A DNA stretch of 64,000 bases. Origin: Acidimicrobiales bacterium (GTDB lineage: Bacteria > Actinomycetota > Acidimicrobiia > Acidimicrobiales > JACCXE01). The position numbers and the translations under genes are program-made. Below, piece after piece: positions 1 through 13,078 of this stretch (its first letter is position 1; every line of letters starts with the position of its first letter). The notes below the pieces were generated by a model that worked only from the letters and a program-made list of their open reading frames with translations, ran no database searches and was not told where the DNA came from. Where the stretch lies: contig DASZWD010000049.1 in NCBI GenBank assembly GCA_035546775.1, positions 1 through 64,000 of the forward strand, written 5' to 3'.

Positions 1-122
1 GAGCCGCCGCCGCGATGGACGCCTCCAGCGGCCAGTCCCAACAAGAACGCAGCGACAGAGACGTACGCCGCGCGCCTGCGGTCCGACCGGCCACCGGAGG
101 GCGTGGTGTTGCGCTGCGTCAC
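1..122 (-). CDS. N-terminus of a membrane protein, runs off the left edge
   Basis: A leftward frame starts at GTG 122-120, sharing one base with the TAG stop of the upstream gene (TAGTG), and stays open to the window edge for 40 codons. The visible part has a basic, hydrophilic leader (residues 1-18) followed by a hydrophobic stretch (about 20-35) that could be the first membrane segment or a signal anchor. The stop/start overlap means it is translated together with the small membrane protein upstream, so it probably belongs to the same conjugation-type operon. I do not recognise the family from so short a fragment. Confidence 0.6.
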   Translation of the reverse strand, partial: MTQRNTTPSGGRSDRRRAAYVSVAAFLLGLAAGGVHRGGG

Positions 123-412
123 TACTTGCCCGCGGCGCTGAAGAGCATGTTCACGGCAGTCGGTGCGAGCCCGGCGAGGATGGCGCCGATCGCCCCAGCG
201 GCGACAAGTTGCTTGCCCCGGAAGGCGTTGCTGTAGCTGCCGGCGTTCTGCGCCAGGCCGTAGACCGCGGCCCCGACGAGGATGCTGGCAAGCGAGCCCC
301 ACAGCGCCAGCTGTGCCAACCAACCGAGCATCTGCTGCAGTAGCGCGGAACCTGGCATCCCCGACGAGCTCGGTGTGACTGTCACGGGTGCTGCCAACAT
401 CGAACGGATCAC
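122..412 (-). CDS. Small two-helix membrane protein (DUF6112-like, conjugation-cluster type)
   Basis: A 96-residue protein with two hydrophobic helices (about residues 25-47 and 63-88) joined by a short polar loop. Size and layout match the small integral membrane proteins found in actinobacterial type IV secretion and conjugation clusters (DUF6112 and relatives, distantly like TrbC/VirB2). The GTG start at 412 is chosen because an AGGAGG ribosome site lies four bases upstream; a longer in-frame extension would read through the divergent promoter. It is the first gene of a leftward unit and is driven by one half of the palindromic promoter at 457-540. The family assignment rests on size and neighbours and is moderate; the membrane topology is visible in the sequence. 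Confidence 0.62.
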   Translation of the reverse strand: MIRSMLAAPVTVTPSSSGMPGSALLQQMLGWLAQLALWGSLASILVGAAVYGLAQNAGSYSNAFRGKQLVAAGAIGAILAGLAPTAVNMLFSAAGK

Positions 413-456
413 GGTGCCTCCTGGTCTGATCGGGAGGCGAGTCGTCACCTCCACCG

Positions 457-540
457 CACATCCACGTACGACGCGGGGCGCGAAAGCGCGACGCGAAATT
501 TCTGATCGCGCTTTCGCGGCGCCGCGCGTACGTGGATGTG
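457..540. promoter_or_regulatory. Near-palindromic divergent promoter with two copies of a shared 31-base motif
   Basis: Two copies of TCGCGCTTTC-N11-CGTACGTGGA lie back to back: on the minus strand at 491-461 and on the plus strand at 506-536. The outer arms (457-470 and 527-540) are perfect 14-base inverted repeats. The motif ends 48 bases before the leftward GTG at 412 and 45 bases before the rightward ATG at 582, so both genes would get similar leaders. Element spacing is promoter-like (TCGCGC as -35, CGTACG as -10). A third copy with identical spacing heads the pilus operon at 11525-11555. Whether a sigma factor or a repressor reads it cannot be told from sequence. Confidence 0.65.
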
Positions 541-581
541 TTCGGTCCGCCCCGGCCGGCGGGGCGGACCAGGAGGGCTCG

Positions 582-1577
582 ATGAAGTTCCTGTTCGCCA
601 TCGCAGGCTTTGTGATGGGGACGCCAATCGCGATCGCGGCCGTGTTCACCGGACCGAACGCGACGACGACCGCGCCCTCTGCCGCCGCCCGCGCCGAGAT
701 CCCAGCCGACTTGCTGCCCGTCTACATGGCGGCGTCGCTCACCTGTCCAGGGCTTCCGTGGCAGGTCCTCGCCGCGATCGGATGGGTCGAGTCACGCCAC
801 GCTCACGGGACCGCGGACCCGCGGACCGGCGATGTCGCCCCGCCGATCATCGGCCCGCCGCTGGACGGGCGGAACAGCACACGCGCGATCCGTGACGTGT
901 CGCAGCCCGACGGTTGGGCGCATGCGCTCGGGCCGATGCAGTTCCTGTCCACCACGTGGGCGAGATGGGGACAGCTCGCGCCCGACCGGCCGCCCGACGC
1001 GACACCGAACATCCAGAACGCGTGGGACTCGATCTACTCGGCTGCCGCGTACTCGTGTGCTGGCGCGGCGAGCGTCGACGACGTCCACGCCGCGGTTCTG
1101 CGCTACAACCATTCCGAGGCGTATGTCCAGCAGGTCATCGCGAAGGCGACCGAGTACGGCCTCGGCTCCGACGAGTCAGCCGACGGCGCGACATTCACTG
1201 GCTCGGGCGACGCCGTCGTCCGCGCCGCCATGACACAACTCGGCGTGCCCTACCAGTGGGGCGGCGAAACACCAGGTGTCGGCTTTGACTGCTCGGGGCT
1301 CGTCCAGTGGTCTTACGCCCAGATCGGCGTCGGTCTCCCGCGCACCACCAGCCAACAGGTGCTCGTCGGAGTCGCGGTAGCCGACGCCGCAGACCTCCGG
1401 CCCGGCGACCTCCTGTTCACGCGCAGCACCAGGAACGGGAGCGTGGTCGACTTCGGCCACGTCGCCATTTACGCGGGCGGCGGCAAGGAGGTCGTTGCTC
1501 CGAAGACGGGCGACGTCGTGTCACTACGTGCGGTTAGCTACAGCTCCTTGCAGGCCACGCGTCGCATCGTCAATTGA
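582..1577 (+). CDS. VirB1-like cell-wall hydrolase: lytic transglycosylase plus NlpC/P60 peptidase
   Basis: A 331-residue exported enzyme. Residues 1-22 form a hydrophobic signal anchor. Residues 42-195 are a lytic-transglycosylase-like domain with the catalytic glutamate in GWVESRH (Glu70) and an ALGPMQF core motif. Residues 210-331 are an NlpC/P60 (C40) domain with catalytic Cys237 in FDCSG and His293 in FGHVAIY. Together they would cut both the glycan strands and the peptide cross-links of peptidoglycan, as enzymes of this type do to make room for a conjugation or secretion channel. ATG 582 is preceded by AGGAGG at 571-576, which rules out longer in-frame starts. It is transcribed alone from the divergent promoter at 506-536. 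Confidence 0.9.
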   Translation: MKFLFAIAGFVMGTPIAIAAVFTGPNATTTAPSAAARAEIPADLLPVYMAASLTCPGLPWQVLAAIGWVESRHAHGTADPRTGDVAPPIIGPPLDGRNSTRAIRDVSQPDGWAHALGPMQFLSTTWARWGQLAPDRPPDATPNIQNAWDSIYSAAAYSCAGAASVDDVHAAVLRYNHSEAYVQQVIAKATEYGLGSDESADGATFTGSGDAVVRAAMTQLGVPYQWGGETPGVGFDCSGLVQWSYAQIGVGLPRTTSQQVLVGVAVADAADLRPGDLLFTRSTRNGSVVDFGHVAIYAGGGKEVVAPKTGDVVSLRAVSYSSLQATRRIVN

Positions 1578-1777
1578 TGTCGTCCACGGGCAGGCAATCC
1601 AGGGACGCCGGCGTCGAGCAAATCGATTCTCCACTTCCAGACTGACTGCGGCCACGAAGGCCTTTGCCTTGACGTTCGCCGTCAGGCCTACCGCGACCTT
1701 GTGCCTTAACGACGCAAGCTGGCGTTGTCCTCTCGGGTGGAAACTGAGAGGCGCCGATCCATCGCTTCTGTGCAGGC

Positions 1778-4261
1778 TCAGCTCGATGTCGTCGTGGGGA
1801 GCCGACTCGCCTCCAAAGGACCGTCAGCGCGGTCGCCGGCTTCCTCGATGAGGACGACGAGTCGGTGCGCTTGGCCTTCCTCGTACGCCCACTCGTAGCC
1901 ACCGGTCGTGCTCTCGAAGGGCAAGCCGCGCACGAGCCGAAGTGCTTCTCCCCACGTCTCGGAATGGATGCTCTCCTCAAGCAGCGCGGCATCCGTGAAC
2001 ACGAACGGCCCGAGGCGGTAGCGATGGTTGTCGACGTGTCGCAGATGGTGGTTGCCTTGCGGATCGAGGCCCAGCATGCGGCGCGCCTTTGAAACGGTCT
2101 CGTTGAAGGCTGCTTGCGTGGGCGCGCCGTCGGGCCACAGCGCAGTCCTGAGACGACCGTCGTCGACGCCGTCGGGATGCATCGCGAGGTACGCCACTAG
2201 TTCGACGCTGCGTCGGCGATCGATTGGCTGTTGGCCGCCAACGATCTCGACCGGACCGAGCACCTTCACCATCACATGCTTTGGCGGGACGATCGGCTCA
2301 CCGAGTAGGTCGAACGAGAGAGGAATTTGCTCCGGACCGACGGTGAGAGGAGCTGTCGGCTTCGCCTGTCGCAGATCGAGCAACTCTCCAGGCTCCAGGT
2401 CTGCGGCGACCTGTAACAGCTCGCCGGACGCCTCCAGGACTTCCGGTGGCAGGTGAGCAGGTGTGAGTCGCAGGCCGACGGGCTTCAGCACGAGCGTGTC
2501 GGCCTCGACGCAGAGTTCCCGGTCGAAGTCGCCGTCGGCGACACCACCGACGACGACGGCGACGCCGCGGTAGACGTGCGCGGTCTTCAGCAGGCGGTCG
2601 AGTTCCGCTTGCGGCTCCGCGACGAGGACAACGATCGGCGTGATCACATCGGACGCATCGTCGACGCGGGCTTCGAAGGCGGTCGTTGGATGCGCCGAGC
2701 CGACCTCCGTGAGTGCGGCGGCTTCGCTCTCTATTTCGTCGATGACATCGGCGAGACGTTCAAACACCCGCGCCCTTCCGGCAGCGTTAAAGCCCGCCGG
2801 CGGCCGGCCGACGAGGATGACATTCACGTCATCCGCGCGGTTACTGGTGACGAGGTCGAGCGCGAGCGTCCACAGGAGCGACGCTGCGTCGTGGGGATCA
2901 CCACCGACAAGCGTTCGCGGCGAGGCCTCGAGATCGATGAGAAGCGAGCGTTCGTCGAGGGCGCCAATGGTGACGAGCGCGGGAGCGGGTCCCGCCTGCG
3001 TGTTGGCGATGGGCCGGATTTCGTCATCGGGCACTGATGCAGACAGCGTCCACGCACGGCCATCGGCTTCGACAGCGAACGGACCCATAGGCGCGTCCAC
3101 CGCATCGGCCAAGAGGATTTCGATCGCCTCGGGTCCGACGCTTACGGCTGAGAGGCTTGGACACGGGCCACGTTTGCGCTGTCCAAGGCAGTTCGCCAGC
3201 ACTCGCAGCGCCATGTCGAGACGGTCGAAAGGTGCCGTGACCGCGGCGCGGCGAAGGTGCACTTCCGCCTGCGCCGCTTTCGGTTCCGGGAGCCGAGGCA
3301 TGCGACCCGGAACACGGTGCCGAAGCTGGCGACGGCGGAGCCGTGACAGACAGGCGACTATCCCTGCAGCGACGAGTGCCGAGGCGGCGAGCAGAGGGGC
3401 CACGGCGTAATCGGGATCGTCCTCGGGCGACGGAGCGACATTCGCAGGAGCGCGATCGCTCGTCGGAGCAACCGTGGGTTCCGTCGTGACTGACGGTGAT
3501 GCGGCAGCAAGCGGTGGCTCGGCGGTTGGAGTGGATGGTGCCGCGACCTTGTTGGCCGTGGGCGCACGCGGCACGTCTTCTCCCGGCAACCCGACGGCAT
3601 CAGGCGGCAGGACGAGCGTCCAGCCCGGGTTGATCAGGCTGGGTTCGACGAAGCGACGCCCATCTGGGAACGACCTGTCGCGGTTGAGATCCCAAATCTC
3701 GCGCCAGCGCAGACCGTCGCCGAGGTGCACCTCGGCGAGCTTCCACAGCGAGTCGCGCGGCGCGACCACGCACGTCGGTGAGGGAGTCGGCGGCTGAGCG
3801 GGAGTGGCGGCGGCGGTCTCAATGGCCGTAGGCACTGTCACCGCCATCGCGGCTGGGATCGGAGTGATGGTCGCGATGCCGGAAGGGCGCAAGGTGCCGA
3901 TCAACAGAGCCGCGGAGACGACGAGTTCGCGCACGAGCGGTTGGACGAAACCAGCGACCGGCAAGGAGCGCGCCTCGCGCCCGCGCATCCAGGCGCGCAC
4001 CTCGACGACGAAGCTCGCAGCCAAGAACGCCCACAGCACCCAAGCCGCGCAGGCGAGCGACTTGATCACCACCGCGTCCGAGATGGACGCGCCGTCCAAC
4101 GCGTGAGACACGTCGTTCCACGATGGGACGAGGGTGGGCAGCGGCCAACCGATGAACCGAACCAACGCCCATGGGACACCGACGAGAAGGACGCCGAGCG
4201 ACAGCAACGCAAGGCCAGCACGACTGAGACGCCAAACGGAACGGAGGCTGCGGCCCATCAC
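1778..4261 (-). CDS. Multi-pass LysM protein with C-terminal winged-helix (SARP/BTAD-type) domain
   Basis: An 827-residue protein that seems to join a wall sensor to a DNA-binding module. Hydrophobic segments lie near residues 14-38, 66-88 and 105-124. A LysM domain follows at 164-220, then a Pro/Thr/Ala-rich linker, a fourth membrane segment (285-305) with basic residues after it, and a long cytoplasmic part. From about 665 there is an OmpR/SARP-type winged helix, then a short BTAD-like stretch that ends in a low-similarity tail, so the usual all-helical BTAD domain looks cut short. It is the last gene of the pilus operon and overlaps its neighbour in a GTGA junction. LysM-BTAD proteins are known companions of actinobacterial Tad loci; the signalling role is inferred. 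Confidence 0.8.
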   Translation of the reverse strand: MMGRSLRSVWRLSRAGLALLSLGVLLVGVPWALVRFIGWPLPTLVPSWNDVSHALDGASISDAVVIKSLACAAWVLWAFLAASFVVEVRAWMRGREARSLPVAGFVQPLVRELVVSAALLIGTLRPSGIATITPIPAAMAVTVPTAIETAAATPAQPPTPSPTCVVAPRDSLWKLAEVHLGDGLRWREIWDLNRDRSFPDGRRFVEPSLINPGWTLVLPPDAVGLPGEDVPRAPTANKVAAPSTPTAEPPLAAASPSVTTEPTVAPTSDRAPANVAPSPEDDPDYAVAPLLAASALVAAGIVACLSRLRRRQLRHRVPGRMPRLPEPKAAQAEVHLRRAAVTAPFDRLDMALRVLANCLGQRKRGPCPSLSAVSVGPEAIEILLADAVDAPMGPFAVEADGRAWTLSASVPDDEIRPIANTQAGPAPALVTIGALDERSLLIDLEASPRTLVGGDPHDAASLLWTLALDLVTSNRADDVNVILVGRPPAGFNAAGRARVFERLADVIDEIESEAAALTEVGSAHPTTAFEARVDDASDVITPIVVLVAEPQAELDRLLKTAHVYRGVAVVVGGVADGDFDRELCVEADTLVLKPVGLRLTPAHLPPEVLEASGELLQVAADLEPGELLDLRQAKPTAPLTVGPEQIPLSFDLLGEPIVPPKHVMVKVLGPVEIVGGQQPIDRRRSVELVAYLAMHPDGVDDGRLRTALWPDGAPTQAAFNETVSKARRMLGLDPQGNHHLRHVDNHRYRLGPFVFTDAALLEESIHSETWGEALRLVRGLPFESTTGGYEWAYEEGQAHRLVVLIEEAGDRADGPLEASRLPTTTSS

Positions 4262-4680
4262 GCCGGCCCGTCCCGGACCGAACGAACACCGTGTGCCGTG
4301 CCCGACGCATGAATCGTGGCCGGCCGGACGCCGACAATGCCGAGGATGGCGAGTCGCTGCGTCACGGTCACGTGCACGGTCACCGTGTCACCGTTGACCT
4401 CGACGGTGCCAGCGTGGCCGGAACGGGCGAGGTAGTCAGCGACGCGCTGGCGCGCCGCGTCCGGTTGAATGACGACGCCGCCGCCCTGGCGCAGAGTGTC
4501 TTCGTCAACGGCTTGCGCGCCCACACGCGCCGCGGCCTCGGCTTCGTCGAACGCCGCGCGCTGGCCTGCCAACATGAAGCCGCCGTCGACGACCAAGCCC
4601 GCGACCGCGAGGAGCGCGACTGCGAACGCGGTCACGAACGCGGTGACCGTCCCGCGCTCGCCGGTGCCTCGCCGGGTCAC
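4258..4680 (-). CDS. TadG-like pilus-assembly protein
   Basis: A 140-residue protein with a short basic leader, one hydrophobic helix (about residues 10-33) ending in a VVDGG motif, and an extracytoplasmic part. The opening resembles the Flp pilus-assembly TadE/G family: a GTVTAF motif just before the helix, then an Ala/Glu-rich amphipathic stretch ending in AARVGA. These minor pilins are thought to prime or cap Tad pili. The start GTG at 4680 overlaps the stop of the upstream TadE-like gene (GTGA), and its own stop overlaps the next gene in the same way. Confidence 0.78.
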   Translation of the reverse strand: MTRRGTGERGTVTAFVTAFAVALLAVAGLVVDGGFMLAGQRAAFDEAEAAARVGAQAVDEDTLRQGGGVVIQPDAARQRVADYLARSGHAGTVEVNGDTVTVHVTVTQRLAILGIVGVRPATIHASGTAHGVRSVRDGPA

Positions 4681-5105
4681 TGGTCCGTCCCGCGGTAGGC
4701 GTCGATCGGCTCGGTGAACGACGCGGTGACGGTGCGCGACGCCGGCAGCTTCAGCCCGCTGAGGTCGGCGAGGTCGACCGCACAGGTCACGGTGGCGGTG
4801 ACGGAGCCTCCGGCACGGAATTCGCCGGTGTTGAGTGCGACGTTCAGTGTCCGGCAGGTGACGTCGCCCTCATGCAGTCGCGCTCGCGCGGCGGAGGCAC
4901 CGTCGGCGGCGGCGGAGTCGGGCCCGCGAGCAATGGAGCCGGCACGTGCGGCGTCTCGCGCCGCGGCGTCGACGTCGGCACGCGCCTGCGCGTAGCGGCC
5001 GCCCATGACGACGAGCAGGAGCATGGCGACGAGCGCGGGCGTCAGCAGCACCAGCTCGGCCGCCGCTGAGCCGGCATCGCCACGGAAGCGAGGACGTCGG
5101 ATCAC
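4677..5105 (-). CDS. TadE-like pseudopilin (second copy)
   Basis: A 142-residue protein with the TadE signature at its N-terminus: the GSAAAELVLLTP motif at residues 12-23, where the glutamate after the cleavage region is typical of prepilin-like substrates, followed by a hydrophobic helix to about residue 39. The rest is an extracytoplasmic beta-rich domain with two cysteines that could form a disulfide. It overlaps the upstream TadE-like gene by four bases (GTGA) and the downstream TadG-like gene likewise, so the three minor pilins are translated as a block. Confidence 0.82.
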   Translation of the reverse strand: MIRRPRFRGDAGSAAAELVLLTPALVAMLLLVVMGGRYAQARADVDAAARDAARAGSIARGPDSAAADGASAARARLHEGDVTCRTLNVALNTGEFRAGGSVTATVTCAVDLADLSGLKLPASRTVTASFTEPIDAYRGTDQ

Positions 5106-5482
5106 CCGGGGTCCTTCCGGAAACGCTCGACCGGGCTCGATGCGCGTGCCTTCACCGGCAGCGAGAAGCCAGGCAGCACGGTGACGGCGTGTCCTTGTAT
5201 TGATACGGCGGCGTTGTTGGCGTCTCTCGTCGCGGTGATGACTGGCTGTCGCACGATGGTGGGGCCGAGCCGCGTCAGGAAGTCGACGGCCCGGGTCCGC
5301 CCGGCGTCGGCGGTCGACCCTTCGAGGCGCGCCGTGCGAACGCCTTCCTGGGCCGCGGCCTGCACGACGTGCTCGGCGTGGTACCAGAGCCCGAACTGGA
5401 CGACGAGCATCACGAGGAACAGCAGGACCGGCGTCAGGAGAACGACTTCGGTGGTTGCCGAGCCTCGCTCCCTAGTTGCCAT
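5102..5482 (-). CDS. TadE-like pseudopilin (first copy)
   Basis: A 126-residue minor pilin. The N-terminus has the GSATTEVVLLTP motif (residues 7-18) and one long hydrophobic helix, then an Ala-rich amphipathic region and a small extracytoplasmic domain without cysteines. ATG 5482 is chosen because it puts the motif at the expected distance from the start and overlaps the end of the pilin gene by only 11 bases; a longer frame would run deep into that gene. TadE and TadG-type proteins are processed by a prepilin peptidase, but no TadV-like peptidase gene is seen in this window. Confidence 0.82.
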   Translation of the reverse strand: MATRERGSATTEVVLLTPVLLFLVMLVVQFGLWYHAEHVVQAAAQEGVRTARLEGSTADAGRTRAVDFLTRLGPTIVRQPVITATRDANNAAVSIQGHAVTVLPGFSLPVKARASSPVERFRKDPG

Positions 5483-5678
5483 CTGTCTGGATGTTGTTGG
5501 CCTTGTTCGTGACCTTGAGGACGATGATCGCTCCGGCGGCAAGAGCCAACGCGGCGAAGATCGCCGTGATGATGACCTTCTCCGTCGTCTCGCCGCGTTC
5601 GTCGTGACGAATGCTGCCGAGACGCAGTTCGAGCCAGCACTGGATGTACGCCAGCGCGGGATGGTTGATGAATGTCAC
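5472..5678 (-). CDS. Flp-like major pilin candidate
   Basis: A 68-residue protein with one hydrophobic helix (about residues 33-54) preceded by a charged DERGETTEK segment and followed by a short polar tail. Size, single helix and position between tadC and the tadE genes match actinobacterial Flp (type IVb) pilins, which form the Tad fibre. The start is GTG 5678 with a strong AAGGAG site six bases upstream, the best ribosome site in the operon and in line with a protein needed in many copies. The classical Gly-Glu-Tyr processing motif is not obvious; GETTEK is the nearest match, so processing is uncertain. Confidence 0.75.
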   Translation of the reverse strand: MTFINHPALAYIQCWLELRLGSIRHDERGETTEKVIITAIFAALALAAGAIIVLKVTNKANNIQTDGN

Positions 5679-5705
5679 GGGCTTCTCCTTCTCTTTGCGG
5701 TTGCG

Positions 5706-6602
5706 TTAGATCCCATGCAGCACCTGCTCGATGGCGGGGTAGACGAGAAAGACGATGAACCCGAGCATGAGGAGCACGACGGGCAGCGTCATGCGCTCGG
5801 TCGCGGCTTGCGCCGCGGTTTCGATGTCGGCGAGGCCGTGCAGCCGGAGTGAGCGCGCCTTGGCGGCGAGCGAGCTGCGGACGCGCGCGCCTTCGTCGCC
5901 GGCGAGCGCGGCGCTTGCGGCCAACTCGCCAAGCTCGGGTACCGCGAGGTCCTGACCGAGACGGGCCAATCCCGCCCACGGCGTCTCACCTAGCAGGCGC
6001 GCTTCGAGCAGCGCGCGGCGCAGTTCGTCGAAGGCCCAACCGCTGCCGGCCTCGGCGCCGTCATGCAGAGCGGAGTCGACGCCGCGACCGCCAGCGAGAC
6101 TGATCGACACGATGTCGAGGAACGAGCTGAAGGCGTGGCGGAAGCTGCGGCGCCGCTCCGCCGCCTTCGACTTCAACAGCAGCGTGGGGTAGAGGAACCC
6201 GACAGGCGCCAAGGCGAGCGACACCCACAGCGGGAACACGAAGCCGACGTGGACGCCGCCCGCCCACATCAACGCGGTGGTGACCGGCGCCCACAGCAGA
6301 CCTAGGGCGAAGAAGGCGGCGCGCTGAGAGACGTGTTCGGCCGCGGTGGTGTTCGTTATGCGAAGGTCCGCAGCGTCTTCACCCGCGAGGCGGGCGCCGA
6401 GAGGCGTCTCGACGAGCGGGACGCCCAGCAACCGCGTGATCGGCGAATGGCGCGGCCCGTCCGTGAAGCCGAGCGGGGTCGGGTGGCGGCGGCGCAAGCT
6501 CGCCAGCGCGAGATCGAGCGGGACGGGCGCGGGGATCAAACCGGATAGGAGCACGACGAGGCCGACGCCGACGCCGCAGCCGGCGATGAGTGCCGGCGTC
6601 AC
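5706..6602 (-). CDS. tadC: Tad secretion inner-membrane platform protein TadC
   Basis: A 298-residue polytopic protein of the type II secretion GspF/TadC family. Helices are visible near the N-terminus (about 5-24), in the middle (about 95-135) and at the C-terminus (about 270-295); a large cytoplasmic domain between them carries the F-domain features FLDIVSISLAGG and TERMTLPVVLLMLGF. TadB and TadC form the platform turned by the TadA ATPase to extrude pilin. The GTG start at 6602 overlaps the tadB stop (GTGA). Adjacency to tadB and tadA makes the family call secure. Confidence 0.9.
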   Translation of the reverse strand: MTPALIAGCGVGVGLVVLLSGLIPAPVPLDLALASLRRRHPTPLGFTDGPRHSPITRLLGVPLVETPLGARLAGEDAADLRITNTTAAEHVSQRAAFFALGLLWAPVTTALMWAGGVHVGFVFPLWVSLALAPVGFLYPTLLLKSKAAERRRSFRHAFSSFLDIVSISLAGGRGVDSALHDGAEAGSGWAFDELRRALLEARLLGETPWAGLARLGQDLAVPELGELAASAALAGDEGARVRSSLAAKARSLRLHGLADIETAAQAATERMTLPVVLLMLGFIVFLVYPAIEQVLHGI

Positions 6603-7444
6603 CGTTCGACCGCCTGTGGGCGAACGGCCAGGAATCGCTCCGGCGCGACGAACTCGCTCATCTGCGACAGCCATCGCAGCGCGATCCCCCAGCACAACGC
6701 GACGCAGGCGAGGGTGAGCTGCCCGGTCGCGGATCCGTAGACGTCGAGGTACTTGCGGTTAAGGAGGATGAGCCCGATGGCGGTGCCAGCAGTGCTCGCG
6801 GCGATAACGCGCACCGCGGTACGAAGCCGGGCACGGGCGGCTTCGACGCGTAGGCGCATGCCGGCTTCCTCGCGGGCCGACTCGGCGAGTGTTCCGAGCA
6901 GTTCGGCGAGGTCACCGACCGAGCCTTGCCACGCGAGGGTGAGCGCGGCGACGACGAGGTCGGCGGTCGGGTGCGCTAGGTCGGCGGCGAACTCTTGGAG
7001 CGCAACCGACAGCGGGACGCGTTCGAGCCGGACGGCGAGGTTCGTCACTTCGAGCTTGATCGGTGCCGGCGCGATCGCGGCCGTGGTGATCACAGCCTGT
7101 TCGAGACCGTGTGCGCCTGACATCGTGTCGCGCAGCATCTCGGTCCACGCCGCGATCGCCTCGGTACGGGCCGTCGCTCGGTCCTGTGTCGCCTTCGATC
7201 CGAACAGTTCGGGCGTGAACCATCCGGCGGCCGCGAGGGCGGCGGCGGCGACCGGCCACCTCGTGACGAGAGCAGTCGGCAACGCGAGCGCAGCCGCGAG
7301 CGTGACGCGTTGGCGGACGTCGGCCTGGACGTTCACCCGGCGCGGGACGGGCGCGCTGGCGGATGGGCGCTGTCGCAGCCCGTCGACGAGGATCCACGTA
7401 CCAAACGCAAGACCCGCTCCCGCGAGCGCGGCGAGCAAGTTCAT
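6599..7444 (-). CDS. tadB: Tad secretion inner-membrane platform protein TadB
   Basis: A 281-residue GspF-type membrane protein. It has an N-terminal helix (about 3-20), two more around 48-75, the soluble F domain with MSGAHGLEQAV (a usual family motif) near residue 110, and two C-terminal helices (about 212-262). Paralogous to the downstream TadC; the two probably form a heteromeric platform under the TadA hexamer. The ATG at 7444 overlaps the tadA stop (ATGA) and the gene ends in a GTGA overlap with tadC, so the three core motor genes are tightly coupled. Confidence 0.9.
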   Translation of the reverse strand: MNLLAALAGAGLAFGTWILVDGLRQRPSASAPVPRRVNVQADVRQRVTLAAALALPTALVTRWPVAAAALAAAGWFTPELFGSKATQDRATARTEAIAAWTEMLRDTMSGAHGLEQAVITTAAIAPAPIKLEVTNLAVRLERVPLSVALQEFAADLAHPTADLVVAALTLAWQGSVGDLAELLGTLAESAREEAGMRLRVEAARARLRTAVRVIAASTAGTAIGLILLNRKYLDVYGSATGQLTLACVALCWGIALRWLSQMSEFVAPERFLAVRPQAVER

Positions 7445-8751
7445 CGCCACCACGCGCTTGGGTTGTCGTGCAGCGACGGGTCGTAACCGGCGACGACGAG
7501 GTCGTCGAGCAAGTCGGTAGGAATTGGTGTGCCCGGGACGGCGCGGCCGTCGGGGCCGGGACGGAACAGTTCGTTGGTCAGGACCTGCTTACCGTCGAAT
7601 CCCGTCACTTGACGGACGCTGGCGACGTGGCGGCCCGAGCTGGTCTTGGCGATGAACACCAACAGGTCGATAGCCGCGGCAGCGAGGAGCAGCGTGGCTT
7701 CCATCGGAAGCCGCTCGGGCGACTGCATCGCGTAGAGCGCGAGCTTGCGGAACACGCCGCTCGACGAGTCGGCGTGGATGGTGCACATCGAGCCGTCGTT
7801 TCCTTGGCTCATGGCGTTGAGCATTGGGATGACCTCGTCGCCGCGGACCTCGCCGACGATGACGCGATCGGGGTTCATGCGCAGTGACATGCGCACGAGC
7901 TCGGCGGCCGTCACTTCGCCGACGCCTTCGACGTTGGCTTCTCGTGCTTCGAGCGCGACGCAGTCCGGATGGATCTCCGGGAAGCGGTCGAGGCCGAGTT
8001 CGAGTTCGGTCTCGATGGTGACGATCCGCTCCTCGGGCGGGATCTCCGACGCGAGGGCGCGCAACATCGTCGTCTTCCCTGCGCCCGTCGCCCCGGCGAT
8101 CATCAACTGCAGGCGCGCCCGGACTGCGGCGGCGAGGAACGACGCGAGGCCCTCGTCGATGGCGCCGAGCCCTTGCAGGTCGGCGAGGTCAACCTTGAGG
8201 TAGCGGTGCCGGCGGATAGCGAGGCACGGACGTGCGCACACCCACGCCGTGGCGAACAGTCGCGACCCGTCGGGCAGCTGGAGGTTGAGTTCCGGTCGGC
8301 TCGCATTGAACTCGCGCTCGGTGAGGCCGTGCCGCCGCCCGATCTCGCGCAGCAGTTCGATCATCTCGGCGTCGCTCGCCGCGATCGCGGGGCCGGGCAC
8401 CTTCGTGCCGTCGGCGTACTCGACGAACACGACGTCGCACCCGTTGGCGTGGACGTTCATGATCCGCTCGTCGTCGAGCAGCGGCTGGAGGCGTCCCAGT
8501 TGGAAGATGCGGTCGAAGACTGCTTGCGCGAGCGCGGCTTCCTCGTCCGGACCGAGGACCGGCTCGTTGCGGGCAAGGCAGTCGCGGGCGTGGGCTTCGA
8601 GTTGGTCGTTGATGAGGCTGCGCGCCAGCGCCGCCTGGTCGTCGGCGTCGAGGCGACGCCCGCCTGTCGCGAGCGCGGCTGAGGTCTGTTCGGTGAGACC
8701 CGTGGCGACGGCGGTACGTATGCGTAGGACGAGGGCTTCGTCGGTCGTCAT
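7441..8751 (-). CDS. tadA: CpaF/TadA-type secretion ATPase
   Basis: A 436-residue motor ATPase of the VirB11/CpaF family, near the usual 400-470. The C-terminal half has Walker A GATGAGKT at residues 220-227, the Walker B region RVIVGEVRG at 296-304, and the His box CTIHAD at 323-328. The N-terminal helical part (1-85) and the following sensor domain with PELNLQLPDGSRL are typical of CpaF. It would energise pilin export and assembly at the membrane. ATG 8751 overlaps the tadZ stop (ATGA); a longer reading frame upstream would run through tadZ and is not real. Because the element also looks conjugative, a VirB11-like role in DNA transfer cannot be excluded. Confidence 0.93.
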   Translation of the reverse strand: MTTDEALVLRIRTAVATGLTEQTSAALATGGRRLDADDQAALARSLINDQLEAHARDCLARNEPVLGPDEEAALAQAVFDRIFQLGRLQPLLDDERIMNVHANGCDVVFVEYADGTKVPGPAIAASDAEMIELLREIGRRHGLTEREFNASRPELNLQLPDGSRLFATAWVCARPCLAIRRHRYLKVDLADLQGLGAIDEGLASFLAAAVRARLQLMIAGATGAGKTTMLRALASEIPPEERIVTIETELELGLDRFPEIHPDCVALEAREANVEGVGEVTAAELVRMSLRMNPDRVIVGEVRGDEVIPMLNAMSQGNDGSMCTIHADSSSGVFRKLALYAMQSPERLPMEATLLLAAAAIDLLVFIAKTSSGRHVASVRQVTGFDGKQVLTNELFRPGPDGRAVPGTPIPTDLLDDLVVAGYDPSLHDNPSAWWR

Positions 8752-9476
8752 GCCAGCGCCGCTTCGGCCGGTGCAACCTCGATCGTGTCGAGGATTGATC
8801 GCGCGGAGCGGACGAGGCGACTCTTGCGTCCGGCGCGGGTACTCGCCGCGCCGTGGAGCGCATCGACGCCGTCGCGATCGACGGCGATCGTTGTCACGTT
8901 CGCGACGCCCGTCGCCCGCGCCACGTTGGCTGCGCCGTATGGCCGGTCGCCCACAAGCACGAGGCCGATCCGGCCACGCGCCGCCGCGGTGAGCGCTTCC
9001 TGCCGTTCCTGGAAGTGGGCGACTCCGGTGAGGTCGGGGTAAAGCACGACGATCGTGAAGTCGGCGGACCGTATGACGTCGAGGGATGGCGAGTTGCGCG
9101 ACCACCGGCCGCAGTCGATGACCCCGTTGCCGAGCGCGCCGACGGCGCCGCTGAGGCGTGACGCGACTGTGGCGACCGAGGCCTCCGCCTGGTCGAGATT
9201 GGTCGGGCCGAGAACTGCGGTGCCGCCGCACGGCAGAGGTTGCGCGTGGCCTGCAACGTCGACTTCGGAGTTGGCGTGACGTGCGCTCGCCGCCATCGTG
9301 ACCAGGCCCGGGTCGAAGGCGAGCCCGAGCCGGGCCGCGAGATCGCCACCGGCCGGGTCGGCCTCGACAAGCACGGCTGGCGATTCGCCGGAACTTGCCC
9401 ACGCCGCGACGAGCGCGAGAGCGAGCGTCGTCGCACCGGGTGAGTGCTTGGCAGAGCAAACAGCAATGAGAGTCAT
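8748..9476 (-). CDS. TadZ/CpaE-like MinD-family protein with degenerate P-loop
   Basis: A 242-residue protein of the ParA/MinD/CpaE superfamily, which places Tad machinery at defined sites in the cell. The N-terminal strand MTLIAVCSAKHSPGATT is where a KGGxGKT deviant Walker A is expected; the motif here reads HSPGATT, so the second lysine is missing, while VEADPAGGDL (switch region) is kept. Loss of the lysine suggests weak or no ATP hydrolysis, as in several TadZ and CpaE proteins that work as localisation factors. It is coupled by ATGA overlaps to the SAF-domain gene upstream and to tadA downstream. Confidence 0.8.
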   Translation of the reverse strand: MTLIAVCSAKHSPGATTLALALVAAWASSGESPAVLVEADPAGGDLAARLGLAFDPGLVTMAASARHANSEVDVAGHAQPLPCGGTAVLGPTNLDQAEASVATVASRLSGAVGALGNGVIDCGRWSRNSPSLDVIRSADFTIVVLYPDLTGVAHFQERQEALTAAARGRIGLVLVGDRPYGAANVARATGVANVTTIAVDRDGVDALHGAASTRAGRKSRLVRSARSILDTIEVAPAEAALA

Positions 9477-10162
9477 CGCGGTGCCAGCACGACGGCGAGA
9501 CGGCCACCTGCTCCGGCGACGGCGAGCGTCGCGGCTTCGGTTGGCGGTACCGCCAGCGAGATCGATACGCCGCCGCCGCTGTCGAGCAACTTCTCGACCG
9601 AGACGACCGTCACCGCGATCGGCGCGGCGATGTCGGCCTGACCGGTCGCCGACGCCGCCTCGGGCGGCATCACGATGGCGAGCACTCTGTCGCCGGGCCG
9701 GAGTCCCGAGGGGAACTGGCCCGGCTTGAGCACTGCGCCGACCACGGCAGCGGACGGATCGACGGTCGGTCCGGTCGCGAGCTGCGCGGGGTTGAACAGG
9801 CTGCCGGGAATGAGGTTCACGGCCGCGGTCTTGCCGACGACTGTTTCGCGGGCGGACCAGGGCGTCGTCCGCACGCCGGTGATCGTGCCGGCCAATGTCT
9901 CGCGCAAGTCGGCGTCCTGGATCACCTGACCGGCGGCGACCGGTCGCGCGATCGCAACGACGGCGTGCCGGCCGCCGATGTTGGCGTAGAGCAGACCGGC
10001 CACGAGCGCGCTGACGACGACGATGAACGCGCCGGTCACGATGCGGGTGCGGTTGCGAGCAGCGGCCTTAGCAGTCGCGCCGGTGGCGGGTGGCGGGGTG
10101 GATGCCATCCGTCGCATGGCGCCGTTTGCCGCTGCGGTCGGCGCGGTTCGGGTTGCAGGCAC
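9473..10162 (-). CDS. SAF-domain pilus protein (CpaB/RcpC-like)
   Basis: A 229-residue protein with a basic cytoplasmic leader (1-40), one membrane helix (about 41-62) and a SAF domain starting near residue 68 (ARPVAAGQVIQDADL), followed by a beta-rich segment. CpaB/RcpC proteins with this layout sit at the outer face of Tad machines and may touch peptidoglycan. The start is GTG 10162, with AAGGAGGG a few bases upstream. A 19-base gap separates it from the secreted-protein gene upstream, the only real gap in the first half of the operon, so the strong ribosome site may reset translation here. Confidence 0.85.
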   Translation of the reverse strand: MPATRTAPTAAANGAMRRMASTPPPATGATAKAAARNRTRIVTGAFIVVVSALVAGLLYANIGGRHAVVAIARPVAAGQVIQDADLRETLAGTITGVRTTPWSARETVVGKTAAVNLIPGSLFNPAQLATGPTVDPSAAVVGAVLKPGQFPSGLRPGDRVLAIVMPPEAASATGQADIAAPIAVTVVSVEKLLDSGGGVSISLAVPPTEAATLAVAGAGGRLAVVLAPR

Positions 10163-10181
10163 GATGCCCTCCTTGGTCGGA

Positions 10182-11024
10182 CTAGCGGTTCACGGCCTCG
10201 ATCTCCGAGACACGGACAGTGAAGGTGGTGGTGCGGCTGACGTTGCCGAGGTCCCCGCCGCCCGCCGCACCGGCGGCGGTCCAGGTGACGTGCCACGTGG
10301 CGGTGGCGGTCGCGGTGAACGCGCCGTTGGGCGCCGAAGCGGAACTGCGGCGGTAGGTGTAGGCGCAGTCGGTGTGCTGCTCGCTGGACGGCCGGTTGGG
10401 GTCGTAAGGAGTTCCCGGCCCGGTGCACGTGACGATGTCGCCGTTCCCCATCGCCCAACGGACCGACTGCGGCGCCGCGGATGCGGTGACGGTCACCCCG
10501 CCCGCACTCGCGGTGGCCGCCACCGGCTGCCACGCGGACGGGTCGACCCACATCCACGTCTCGAGGTTGACCACCTGCTCGCCGGTCTCGGGCGGGTTGA
10601 GATGAACGTCCGGCAGCGGGATCGGCGCGCGGCCCGACGCCTGCGCGGCGAGCTGAGCCGGGCTGATGGCGCGATCGGCGATCCAAATGACCGTCGCGCT
10701 CGACTGGCCGTTCGCGTCGACGCAGACCTTGCGGTACCAGGCTCCCGGTTCCTGACCCCGCGGCGGACCCGATCCGTTGGCCGCCATCGTGTCAGCAATC
10801 CCTTGGCTCTCGGCGTCGAGTCGCTCGTAGGTGCACGTCCGATGGCCGCCGCCTCCGCCGCCCTTGCCGGCGCTGCCGCCGGACCCGTCGCTCGTGCCGG
10901 CGTTAGCCCCGACCTGTGTGCCGTCACTGAATGCGTCGCCGGTGCCGTCGGCGCGGGCGACGACGGGACTAACACCGATGATCAGCCCCGCCACGGCGAG
11001 CATGGCGATCACGCGGCGGTACAC
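10182..11024 (-). CDS. Secreted protein of unknown function in pilus operon
   Basis: A 280-residue exported protein. Residues 1-26 are a signal peptide with an Ala-x-Ala cleavage site (VVARADG). A Gly/Ser-rich linker follows, then a Cys-containing domain and, from about residue 165, a beta-rich domain with SVRWAMGNGD and later SRTTTFTVRV, reminiscent of immunoglobulin-like or PKD-type folds. The start is GTG 11024, with GAGGG six bases upstream and inside the end of the lipoprotein gene, so the two are coupled. Similar secreted proteins lie next to CpaB-like genes in actinobacterial Tad islands; an extracytoplasmic structural or adhesive role is a guess. Confidence 0.7.
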   Translation of the reverse strand: MYRRVIAMLAVAGLIIGVSPVVARADGTGDAFSDGTQVGANAGTSDGSGGSAGKGGGGGGHRTCTYERLDAESQGIADTMAANGSGPPRGQEPGAWYRKVCVDANGQSSATVIWIADRAISPAQLAAQASGRAPIPLPDVHLNPPETGEQVVNLETWMWVDPSAWQPVAATASAGGVTVTASAAPQSVRWAMGNGDIVTCTGPGTPYDPNRPSSEQHTDCAYTYRRSSASAPNGAFTATATATWHVTWTAAGAAGGGDLGNVSRTTTFTVRVSEIEAVNR

Positions 11025-11518
11025 CCGTCGCCCTCGCGCTTGAGGTTGCTCACCTTCCACGCTCCAGCGTCACGGACGAGCGACGCGGTGATGAGGTGGC
11101 GCACACCCGTAGCCGTGTCTTTGCGCGTGCCCGTCGCCGCGTCGTAGATGCCGGTGTTGTCGAGGTAGCAGTCGCGGACAGACGCGCTCTCGCCAAGGAT
11201 GGAGAGGACACGAGGCGACAGGTTGAGGTTCCCTCGGATCACTTCACCGCCCGACTTGCGGGCAAGGAACGCTGTACGCAGGGTTTGGAGTTCCGGATCG
11301 GTCGCGTGATCTCCGAGCTTCGGGCTCTGCGGATCCATCGGATCGGCGGCGGCGAGATAGTCGTCCCAGAAGGCGCGGTACGCAGTGAGCACCTCGTGAT
11401 CGGCGGGCGCTGTCGTCGTTGTCGCGCGCGTCTTCGAGGACTTGTCGGCGTTCTTGTCGCCACCGTTCGAGCACGACGCCAGCAGCGCCACAACGGCGGC
11501 GAGCGTTACGAAATTCAC
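11009..11518 (-). CDS. Lipoprotein, first gene of the pilus operon
   Basis: A 169-residue protein with a signal peptide ending in the lipobox LLASC (Cys17), an acidic/Thr-rich linker, and a globular part that looks like a small NTF2-like or VirB8-like fold (EVLTAYRAFWDDYLAA, then beta strands with SLVRDAGAWKVSN near the end). It would sit on the outer face of the membrane. GTG 11518 is only six bases from the third copy of the shared promoter motif and has no ribosome site, which suggests a leaderless transcript. The fold is a weak impression; the lipobox is clear. Confidence 0.72.
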   Translation of the reverse strand: MNFVTLAAVVALLASCSNGGDKNADKSSKTRATTTTAPADHEVLTAYRAFWDDYLAAADPMDPQSPKLGDHATDPELQTLRTAFLARKSGGEVIRGNLNLSPRVLSILGESASVRDCYLDNTGIYDAATGTRKDTATGVRHLITASLVRDAGAWKVSNLKREGDGCTAA

Positions 11519-11888
11519 GCCGCGTCCACGTACGCGCGCGAGCGAGAAAGCGCGACGCGTTTCCGGCGATTTCTTCCCGGCTGGAGGTTGGGCGCTACCC
11601 CCGGGCGGCTGTTCGCCGTCCCTTGCTGCCGACCGCTCGAGGCGGTCGCCTCGGTACATCGCACACTTCGTCGTGGCACCTCCAATCGCCACGAACCGCC
11701 AACTGACCCAACAGTGCACCCAATAGGCAAACTCCGCAAGAGCCGCATCTGCGGGTTATCAGGCCTCTGACCAGGGACGCTGATCGACTCAGCGCGCCGA
11801 TCCCAGCCGCGCTGAGGTTTTCGCTGAGGGTCGCGGCGGACGCTCGGGCCACTAGCCGCAGCCAGCGGCTCCGACACGGGAGCGCCCG
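11519..11888. promoter_or_regulatory. 370-base regulatory region between the pilus operon and the sigma-like gene
   Basis: No convincing gene lies here. At the left is the leftward pilus-operon promoter motif (11525-11555). At the right, before the sigma-like gene, are four CGCTGA half-sites: an inverted pair CGCTGA-N5-TCAGCG at 11778-11794 and two direct copies CGCTGAGG at 11810-11817 and 11822-11829, exactly 12 bases apart. A separate hairpin AGCCGC-N5-GCGGCT is at 11854-11870. Repeated half-sites on one face of the helix are what an operator for a dimeric regulator looks like. The stretch 11564-11777 shows nothing I can interpret. Confidence 0.5.
11525..11555 (-). promoter_or_regulatory. 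Pilus-operon promoter: third copy of TCGCGCTTTC-N11-CGTACGTGGA
   Basis: On the minus strand the two ten-base boxes are at 11555-11546 and 11534-11525, separated by exactly 11 bases as in both copies at 457-540. The CGTACG box ends six bases before the GTG start of the lipoprotein, so transcription from a normal -10 distance would begin at or next to the start codon. The motif was not found elsewhere in this window by eye; a partial match near 7392-7400 lacks the other box. Confidence 0.62.
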
Positions 11889-12605
11889 ATGATGACCGAC
11901 CTGTTCACCCTTCTCGACCGTGACTGGCAGACGTGGAGCCGCCGACCCGCGGCGCAACACGCAATGGCCCGGTGGCACAACGCGGCGCCCAACCTCCGGT
12001 CGTTTACATCTGTCGACGAGCTCATGGCGGTGTTCGAGGACAGGAGCGCCCGCGACGAGCACGACGACGTGCTCCTCGCACTGTTGGCGGCAGCGCGCAG
12101 CGACGCCGACGCGCGCCGTGCGGTCGTTCAGATCCTTCGAGCTGGCCTGGTAGCGCTCGCGGTTCGAGCCCGGAAGTGGTCCGACTGGGACGAGGCCTCG
12201 AGCGCGGTCGTCGCTGCCGCCCTCGATCGCATCGGGCGGTATCCGGAGCACCGCACGGCGCGGGTGGCCGCAAATCTCCTCGGAGACATCTGGCACTCCG
12301 TTTGGGCCGAGCGTCAGATCGAACTTCGGCACCGAGCCGGTTGGACCCACCGTGTCGACGTCGAAGCGATCGACACGATCGGCGAAAGCGACGAAGCCGG
12401 CCGCGGCGAAGAACTCATGACGCTGATCGACGAAGCGGTCCACCGGCGGCGCATCACGCCGCGCGATGCGCGCATCGTCGTGCTCCACCGAGTACTCGGC
12501 TACACGAACGTCGAGGTCGGTCGCATCGAGGGTCAGCGGCCGTGCACGATCCGCAAGCGGCGTCTCGCCGCGGAGGCGGCGATCACGAAGCTGGCCGTGG
12601 CGTAG
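11889..12605 (+). CDS. Sigma-factor-like DNA-binding regulator of the element
   Basis: A 238-residue, mostly helical protein without cysteines or membrane segments. The C-terminal part (about residues 175-235) reads like sigma region 4: RRITPRDARIVVLHRV, then the helix-turn-helix YTNVEVGRIEG and the basic recognition region CTIRKRRLAAEAAI. The N-terminal half could be a degenerate region 2, though no clear -10 recognition motif is visible. Proteins like this are common in actinobacterial integrative elements. A GGGAG lies upstream of ATG 11889/11892. It is followed after 11 bases by the excisionase-like gene. As the only sigma-like gene in the element part seen here, it is the natural candidate to read the three-copy motif; this is inference. 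Confidence 0.68.
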   Translation: MMTDLFTLLDRDWQTWSRRPAAQHAMARWHNAAPNLRSFTSVDELMAVFEDRSARDEHDDVLLALLAAARSDADARRAVVQILRAGLVALAVRARKWSDWDEASSAVVAAALDRIGRYPEHRTARVAANLLGDIWHSVWAERQIELRHRAGWTHRVDVEAIDTIGESDEAGRGEELMTLIDEAVHRRRITPRDARIVVLHRVLGYTNVEVGRIEGQRPCTIRKRRLAAEAAITKLAVA

Positions 12606-12616
12606 GTGGCCATGCG

Positions 12617-12832
12617 ATGACCACATCGAATCCGACCGCGCGCCATGAAGTTCCTGACCTGCTCGACATCACGGAGTTGGCGGAACACCTCGGTGTCAAC
12701 GTTCGTCACGTGCGCCGGCTCATTGCAGAGCGTCGCATCCCGTTCATCAAGTGGGGCCACCTGATCCGATTCGACCCGAGCGAGATCGTGGAGTGGCTCG
12801 ACCGCAGCCGGCACGAGAGCGCCGGGCGCTGA
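12617..12832 (+). CDS. Excisionase-family helix-turn-helix protein
   Basis: A 71-residue protein with a MerR-like winged helix-turn-helix: DITELAEHLGVNVRHVRRLIAERRIPFIKWGHLIRF, then DPSEIVEWL. Such short proteins are recombination directionality factors (Xis) or regulators in phages and integrative elements. The gene starts 11 bases after the sigma-like gene and ends about 200 bases from the att scar, the usual place for xis. No tyrosine or serine integrase follows it here; the partner recombinase must lie at the other end of the element or has been lost. Confidence 0.82.
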   Translation: MTTSNPTARHEVPDLLDITELAEHLGVNVRHVRRLIAERRIPFIKWGHLIRFDPSEIVEWLDRSRHESAGR

Positions 12833-13028
12833 CTTTCATGGCGACAGCCGTCCGAACTCAGGCCCGTCAAAGCTCACGGCTCGTGCCCCACCCGTGCCCC
12901 ATGTACTGGTCTTTTCTGGACCTCAACCGGTCCTGGCGGTCACTTCCGGACACGCCGATTTTAGCCCGTCTAGCAGCGGAAATACCGATATCCCCAGGTC
13001 ACCCAGCACGTTCGGGATATCGCCTGCG
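12833..13028. other. Element end: integrase-site-like repeats next to the att scar
   Basis: No gene is supported. Two direct repeats CGTGCCCCA at 12882-12890 and 12893-12901 are 11 bases apart, one helical turn, as arm-type integrase sites often are. A nine-base inverted repeat CGATATCCC / GGGATATCG at 12986-12994 and 13014-13022 (19-base loop) directly abuts the tRNA fragment; it could be a core-flanking recombinase site or a terminator. Protein binding at any of these is inference. Confidence 0.4.
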
Positions 13029-13078
13029 CGCGCCTGAAAAGCGTGAGGTCACCGGATCGACGCCGGTCCCGACCACCA
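13029..13078 (+). other. tRNA-Phe 3' fragment (putative attR scar)
   Basis: The 50 bases fold as the 3' half of a tRNA. Anticodon stem CGCGC (13029-13033) pairs with GCGTG (13041-13045) around the loop CTGAAAA, anticodon GAA (Phe). The T stem ACCGG/CCGGT (13051-13055, 13063-13067) encloses the seven-base loop ATCGACG, where the first base is A instead of the usual T. The acceptor strand CCCGACC, discriminator A and encoded CCA end at 13078. The matching 5' acceptor strand GGTCGGG and D arm are absent upstream, so this is not a working gene. This is the expected right-hand scar of integration into tRNA-Phe; the intact gene should flank the left end outside the window. Confidence 0.85.

Follow-up and report, generated by a model that had tools for sequence, protein, structure and literature searches.

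The right end of an integrated element occupies positions 1 to 13078 of the stretch of DNA analysed here. This element, probably an integrative and conjugative element (ICE) of the type IV secretion system (T4SS) type or the remnant of one, lies in a tRNA-Phe gene and carries a Tad pilus operon beside conjugation genes. The most likely function of this pilus, judged from sequence, is in mating, and we put at roughly 0.6 the probability of the picture as a whole: the right end of a T4SS-type ICE (or remnant) in tRNA-Phe, with a Tad pilus that serves conjugation under shared sigma control. To our knowledge, it is unclear how monoderm actinobacteria that harbour T4SS elements hold a mating partner. 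The dedicated clade of Tad ATPases described below, tied to transfer genes and accompanied by a common promoter code, makes a role in mating testable by the deletion of one gene.

The window, meaning the whole stretch analysed, comprises bases 1-64000 of contig C49 (71.7 kb), in a source genome (G000) of 75 contigs and 3.75 Mb; the host is an Acidimicrobiia-related actinobacterium, presumed to be monoderm. The relatives used most were a genome of the same genus (G001), an Acidimicrobiia metagenome-assembled genome of the same order (G040, contig CANJRG010000006.1) and a genome assembled as a single contig (G003). Domain calls on window proteins are from Pfam and NCBIfam.

An element integrated at tRNA-Phe

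The element is closed on its right by a piece of tRNA-Phe that lies on the plus strand, in the position expected for the distal att copy:

13027..13078, plus strand: attR, the 52-nt 3' part of tRNA-Phe(GAA), identical in sequence to the final 52 nt of the complete tRNA-Phe of G001

This is the right copy of a probable att duplication at the tRNA gene. Neither ARAGORN nor Rfam reports a tRNA gene in the window, because tRNA-Phe is present there as a fragment only. The initial annotation described the element as tRNA-bounded: the right edge is real, but it is formed by a fragment and not by a tRNA gene, and the left edge falls outside the contig. Window position 1 is the contig end, and only the right boundary of the element is inside the window. 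In G001 (C54:172-2898), tRNA-Phe holds a small insertion unlike this one, which brings a partial tRNA copy of its own. A second, altered copy of tRNA-Phe is present in a further relative (G065); with these separate insertions and the second copy, the tRNA-Phe site is a hotspot. Past the partial tRNA copy, the G001 DNA is acyltransferase-like, and the flank in the window is instead a cobalt-type ABC transporter. In the examined relatives of the order, as in the window (13054-13064), the tRNA-Phe T-loop reads ATCGACG and not TTCGANN.

Comparison of gene order in other actinobacteria, which the initial annotation had proposed as a check, supports the assignment. The order DUF6112, VirB1, LysM-BTAD, tad, sigma-like gene is kept in G040, with 71% identity between the TadA proteins. 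To the left of DUF6112, G040 continues with TcpC-like, TrbL, SCO6880-like, VirB4 and VirD4 genes, other genes, PrimPol, a TrwC relaxase, ParB and a serine recombinase (VirB4, SCO6880-like, TcpC-like and ParB were named by eye and similarity). G003 carries two such loci on its one contig, and one of them has relaxase, tad, VirB1, DUF6112, TrbL, VirB4 and VirD4 within ~31 kb.

A promoter motif shared by tad, VirB1 and the T4SS operon

One motif of 19 fixed bases with a 12-nt spacer stands, mismatch-free and correctly oriented, before the DUF6112 gene, the VirB1-like gene and the tad operon:

461..491, minus strand: promoter motif TCGCGCTTT-N12-CGTACGTGGA for the DUF6112/T4SS operon
506..536, plus strand: the same motif as at 461..491, for the VirB1-like gene
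11525..11555, minus strand: the same motif, for the tad operon, with the start codon 6 nt downstream

The putative regulon of the initial annotation is borne out by this identity. A scan of the source genome with 0-2 mismatches allowed returned seven sites, three in the window, one on contig C4 and three on contig C72; the number of exact copies expected from base composition is ~2e-5. The C4 site precedes a pair of excisionase (xis) and integrase (int) genes, as does one of the three C72 sites. The C72 sites count as independent, since only the window and C4 sites went into the search pattern. Apart from the promoter motif, direct repeats in the window look chance-level for DNA of 68% GC. The relatives use other sequences: in G040 a different motif, GCGCGCTTATC, is found at these three promoters and at no other place in 91 kb, 3 copies in all where base composition predicts 0.06. 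G003 and the locus L125 have GGGGCCTAC at the DUF6112 and VirB1 promoters and at a promoter beside the relaxase gene, and G003 has it at VirD4 as well.

The candidate reader of the motif is encoded at the right end of the element, with an excisionase-like gene behind it:

11889..12605, plus strand: divergent ECF-like (extracytoplasmic function) sigma factor, candidate master regulator (weak TIGR02937/Sigma70_r4_2)
12617..12832, plus strand: HTH_17 excisionase-like gene (PF12728, 3.8e-12)

The two genes are 11 bases apart on the same strand and are likely to be co-transcribed. In the predicted structure of the sigma-like protein, the C-terminal residues 163-238 adopt a sigma region 4 fold (VIA Z 8-9, with sigma factors as nearly all top matches). 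The N-terminal part, where the core RNA polymerase-binding region 2 would lie, is modelled with low confidence, and Foldseek alone returned nothing for the model at E below 0.001.

The excisionase-like gene of the window is 71% identical to the C72 xis and 57% identical to the C4 xis, each of which lies directly before an integrase gene. The inserted C72 element (C72:230115-236747), flanked by tRNA-Pro on one side and by a 60-bp repeat of tRNA-Pro on the other, is 6.6 kb long, carries int, xis and the three motif copies, and is possibly a satellite. The C4 element (C4:28875-44839) has a TrwC relaxase and a xis-int pair under an exact motif copy, and its ends may form an imperfect repeat of 34 bp; no match to VirB4 or VirD4 was found in the 46 kb read, and it may be a mobilisable element riding on the ICE. 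Islands that obey the activator of another element are known from SGI1 with IncC plasmids. The likeness here lies in small elements whose xis-int genes carry the motif of the ICE; the difference is that control would be exerted by a predicted sigma-like factor and its motif. If this factor does control three elements in one genome, it would be an actinobacterial counterpart of the SXT/SGI1 type of activator hijacking. The relaxase at C4:37186, the sole TrwC relaxase of the source genome, was considered as part of the missing left half of the window element and rejected: it is part of a different element, which has xis and int genes of its own. None of the 8 integrase-family matches in the source genome was shown to belong to the window element.

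Linkage of a TadA clade with transfer genes

At the level of the order, 37 of the 53 genomes that have the LysM-BTAD marker, versus 8 of the 27 that lack it, had a match to the coupling protein domain TraG-D_C (Fisher p=8e-4). When both lay on one contig, the coupling protein was mostly 10-20 kb downstream of LysM-BTAD. An initial scan for T4SS genes within +/-10 kb of 80 named loci had given few matches, because the coupling protein usually sits farther out, and whole-record distances were used instead. At the level of the phylum, in 45 genomes or plasmids of Actinomycetota, TraG-D_C lay within 60 kb of 41 of the 86 TadA of the window clade, whereas none of the 54 canonical TadA that these genomes also encode had it so close (p=2e-11); the rows of this count are phylogenetically non-independent, the clade was delimited by a bit-score cut of 290.5 chosen after the list was seen, many TraG-D_C matches are weak and contig ends conceal partners. 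The nearby TraG-D_C was nearly always downstream of TadA. Chromosomal Tad/Flp loci of Actinobacteria, with canonical TadA, use the same ATPase and platform protein family as the element but form a separate TadA group: all 16 sampled canonical TadA fall on one side of a 100/99 branch, with the window, G040 and L084 on the opposite side. The window clade appears to travel with conjugation systems throughout Actinomycetota.

Plasmid versions and related systems

Plasmids of Embleya, Kitasatospora, Kineococcus, Streptomyces, Paenarthrobacter, Nocardioides, Micromonospora and Nonomuraea show the same arrangement of genes. Eight of nine inspected plasmids have transfer-type genes near the module, either T4SS (PrgI/SCO6880, VirB4, VirD4) or FtsK-type; in the ninth, no transfer-type gene was evident within 18 kb. 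As some plasmids have T4SS genes and others FtsK-type genes, the module is not tied to a single type of transfer machine.

The closest described systems are linear plasmids of Cutibacterium acnes, on which the same operon, including sigma, SAF and LysM-BTAD genes, lies beside VirB4/TcpC/FtsK-like genes (PMC3666418, PMC5696575). In that work a TadE protein was detected at the cell surface (PMC3666418, PMC5696575), and one plasmid of the group was reported to be transferable (PMC9119108). In pIMPLE-HL096PA1, p09-9 and pTP-CU411 the order is the same as here: sigma-like, SAF, TadZ, TadA, two TadB/C, a small open reading frame (ORF), three TadE and LysM-BTAD. These plasmids are extrachromosomal and linear, unlike the chromosomal insertion at tRNA-Phe; an anti-sigma gene was reported for them, and a shared promoter motif was not. 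The pairing of Tad with conjugation is real and, though under-recognised, of a kind already known from C. acnes plasmids, so that 'little-described', the term of the initial annotation, was half right. What is new, as far as we searched, is the integrated form, the phylum-wide linkage and the promoter code held in common with satellite-like elements; neither a conjugation-linked Tad clade nor a shared promoter code turned up in any paper of the open-access literature that we searched.

As a functional analogue we propose the type IVb pili of the I-complex plasmids R64 and TP114, which are likewise type IV filaments of conjugative elements and stabilise mating pairs (PMC9045228). Those pili are of class IVb, belong to Gram-negative hosts and have a PilV shufflon, whereas the pilus considered here is Tad, of class IVc, and its host is presumed to be monoderm. 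No class IVb pilin, PilV shufflon or pil genes were seen in the element, and its ATPase and minor pilins are Tad-type. T4SS-type ICEs of Actinobacteria (PMC3218068) share the MOBF/TrwC relaxase, VirD4 and VirB4 in integrated elements, genes that we see here in relatives; a term search of the main text of that paper gave no passage on a Tad pilus.

Function of the pilus and alternative explanations

The recurrence of the tad-transfer pairing across actinobacteria suggests that the filament is used to hold the mating partner. In the mechanism that we propose, the element's own sigma-like factor, encoded with the excisionase, would bind the motif and turn on three promoters together, those of the T4SS operon (DUF6112 first), VirB1 and tad. 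TadA, TadB and TadC would then extend and retract a Tad filament that catches and draws in the recipient or stabilises the mating pair, while VirB1 would open the wall and the T4SS would pass DNA nicked by the TrwC relaxase. A wider version is tentative and, at present, less likely than not: many T4SS elements of Actinomycetota may mate by means of a phylum-wide, conjugation-dedicated Tad pilus, which an element-encoded sigma factor would turn on together with the T4SS and excision, and the promoter code of this factor would be copied by satellites in the same cell that excise and move with the ICE.

The strongest competitor, though an unlikely one, is that the Tad pilus is adhesion cargo that helps the host to colonise surfaces and has no part in transfer. 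Tad pili are adhesive in general, and the C. acnes authors interpreted the tad locus of their plasmids as a factor for host adhesion and called its link to conjugation unclear (PMC5696575). Neither a promoter code shared between tad and the T4SS nor a near-fixed place relative to the coupling protein across orders is, however, expected of cargo.

Several findings weigh against a conjugative ICE with its own mating pilus. The relaxase, VirD4 and VirB4 genes of this element would lie past the contig end, outside the assembly, as do the left att copy and an intact tRNA-Phe, which was sought across the whole source assembly and is absent. TraG-D_C had no match anywhere in the source genome. The leftward check for transfer genes proposed in the initial annotation stops at position 1; relaxase, VirD4, VirB4 and TrbL are present in the syntenic G040 contig. 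Between xis and attR there is no integrase, and this copy may therefore not excise by itself. No prepilin peptidase was seen in the window's tad module, and in the G003/L125 subtype no copy of GGGGCCTAC was found before tad. A lack of transfer genes, or tad at fixed chromosomal sites, had been named beforehand as counting against the idea, and this is partly what we see: of the 53 genomes of the order in which the LysM-BTAD marker occurs, 16 gave no match to TraG-D_C. Of the 86 clade TadA, 45 have no TraG-D_C nearby. Contig ends and FtsK-type transfer genes account for some part of these loci.

The same gaps are what a decayed, immobile ICE remnant with a domesticated or dying tad operon would leave: xis at the right end has no integrase next to it, the left half is outside the assembly and the genome has no TraG-D_C match. 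We consider such decay improbable. Every tad ORF is open and the motifs are exact; the contig starts 121 bases left of DUF6112, as a simple assembly gap would have it, and the absence of an intact tRNA-Phe, equally missing, is consistent with such a gap on the left. Least probable is a DNA-uptake island whose Tad pilus imports DNA in natural transformation: a tad/Flp locus is required for transformation in Micrococcus luteus (PMC4322843, as cited in PMC5696575), but around this module we noticed no com genes, without a search aimed at them, and the neighbours in relatives are T4SS and relaxase genes.

What the initial annotation proposed is supported in part. An integrative element that pairs Tad with conjugation genes has the support of attR, synteny, phylum-wide linkage and shared promoter motifs, but the assembly lacks its left end, its coupling protein, its integrase and the intact tRNA-Phe; the pilus may serve mating, attachment or DNA movement. 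This copy probably had, or still has, a left half.

Genes of the element

The left end of the window holds the start of the T4SS operon and the VirB1-like gene:

1..121, minus strand: truncated 5' end of a gene, TcpC-like by position, cut at the contig end; its frame begins at the DUF6112 stop
122..412, minus strand: DUF6112 two-helix membrane protein, first gene of the T4SS operon (PF19607 below cut-off)
582..1577, plus strand: VirB1-like cell-wall hydrolase (NlpC/P60 C-terminus, PF00877 6.5e-21; lysozyme-like N-terminus by eye)

By eye and unscored, the truncated gene resembles the start of the G040 gene adjoining DUF6112. The DUF6112 protein is 66% identical to the product of the G040 gene adjoining TrbL/VirB4/VirD4 and has a weak VirB2-like match. 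The hydrolase was correctly recognised there, as its NlpC/P60 domain confirms, and has 59% identity over 192 aa to its G040 counterpart.

The tad operon runs leftwards from 11518 and is given here in its order of transcription:

11009..11518, minus strand: putative lipoprotein, first tad-operon gene (NF053527 weak; the G040 orthologue, too, begins a few bases past its motif)
10182..11060, minus strand: conserved secreted/membrane protein, with orthologues at the same place in relatives
9473..10162, minus strand: SAF-domain CpaB/RcpC-like protein (PF08666 1.8e-5; TIGR03177 4.6e-6)
8748..9476, minus strand: TadZ-like ATPase (TIGR03815 2.6e-11, below cut-off)
7441..8730, minus strand: TadA/CpaF ATPase of the conjugation-linked clade (T2SSE 9.2e-32; TIGR03819 6e-65, the best NCBIfam model; tree)
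6599..7444, minus strand: TadB platform protein (T2SSF weak, below cut-off; synteny)
5706..6644, minus strand: TadC platform protein (T2SSF 2.9e-8)
5472..5678, minus strand: Flp-like major pilin, a small ORF kept at the same place in relatives (59% in G040)
5102..5485, minus strand: TadE minor pilin (PF07811 1.8e-14)
4677..5105, minus strand: TadE minor pilin (PF07811 3.4e-10)
4258..4680, minus strand: TadG-like minor pilin (PF13400 weak; synteny)
1778..4258, minus strand: LysM-BTAD membrane protein (LysM and BTAD in the plasmid orthologue), which ends the tad operon in relatives

The assignment to Tad rests on a TadA/CpaF-type ATPase, two T2SSF platform proteins, TadE/TadG minor pilins and a peptidase in the genome. 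Pfam and NCBIfam uphold the earlier naming of tadZ-tadA-tadB-tadC, the SAF protein and three TadE/G proteins (two TadE and one TadG-like), TadB and TadZ weakly. The LysM-winged-helix protein and the Flp-like pilin stand in part: LysM and BTAD both reach Pfam in the plasmid orthologue but neither does in the window copy, and the Flp-like ORF has no Pfam match but occupies the Flp slot of the conserved gene order. The single A24 peptidase of the source genome, on another contig, is a candidate processor of the Flp-like pilin; in plasmid versions of the module (L075, L076) an A24/prepilin peptidase adjoins LysM-BTAD or lies near it. The Flp-like ORF (68 aa) holds GETTEK, with the glutamate at +4, versus +5 in the prepilin site G/xxxxE; the Flp-like pilin of G040, with GEVTEK, likewise has its glutamate at +4 after the glycine.

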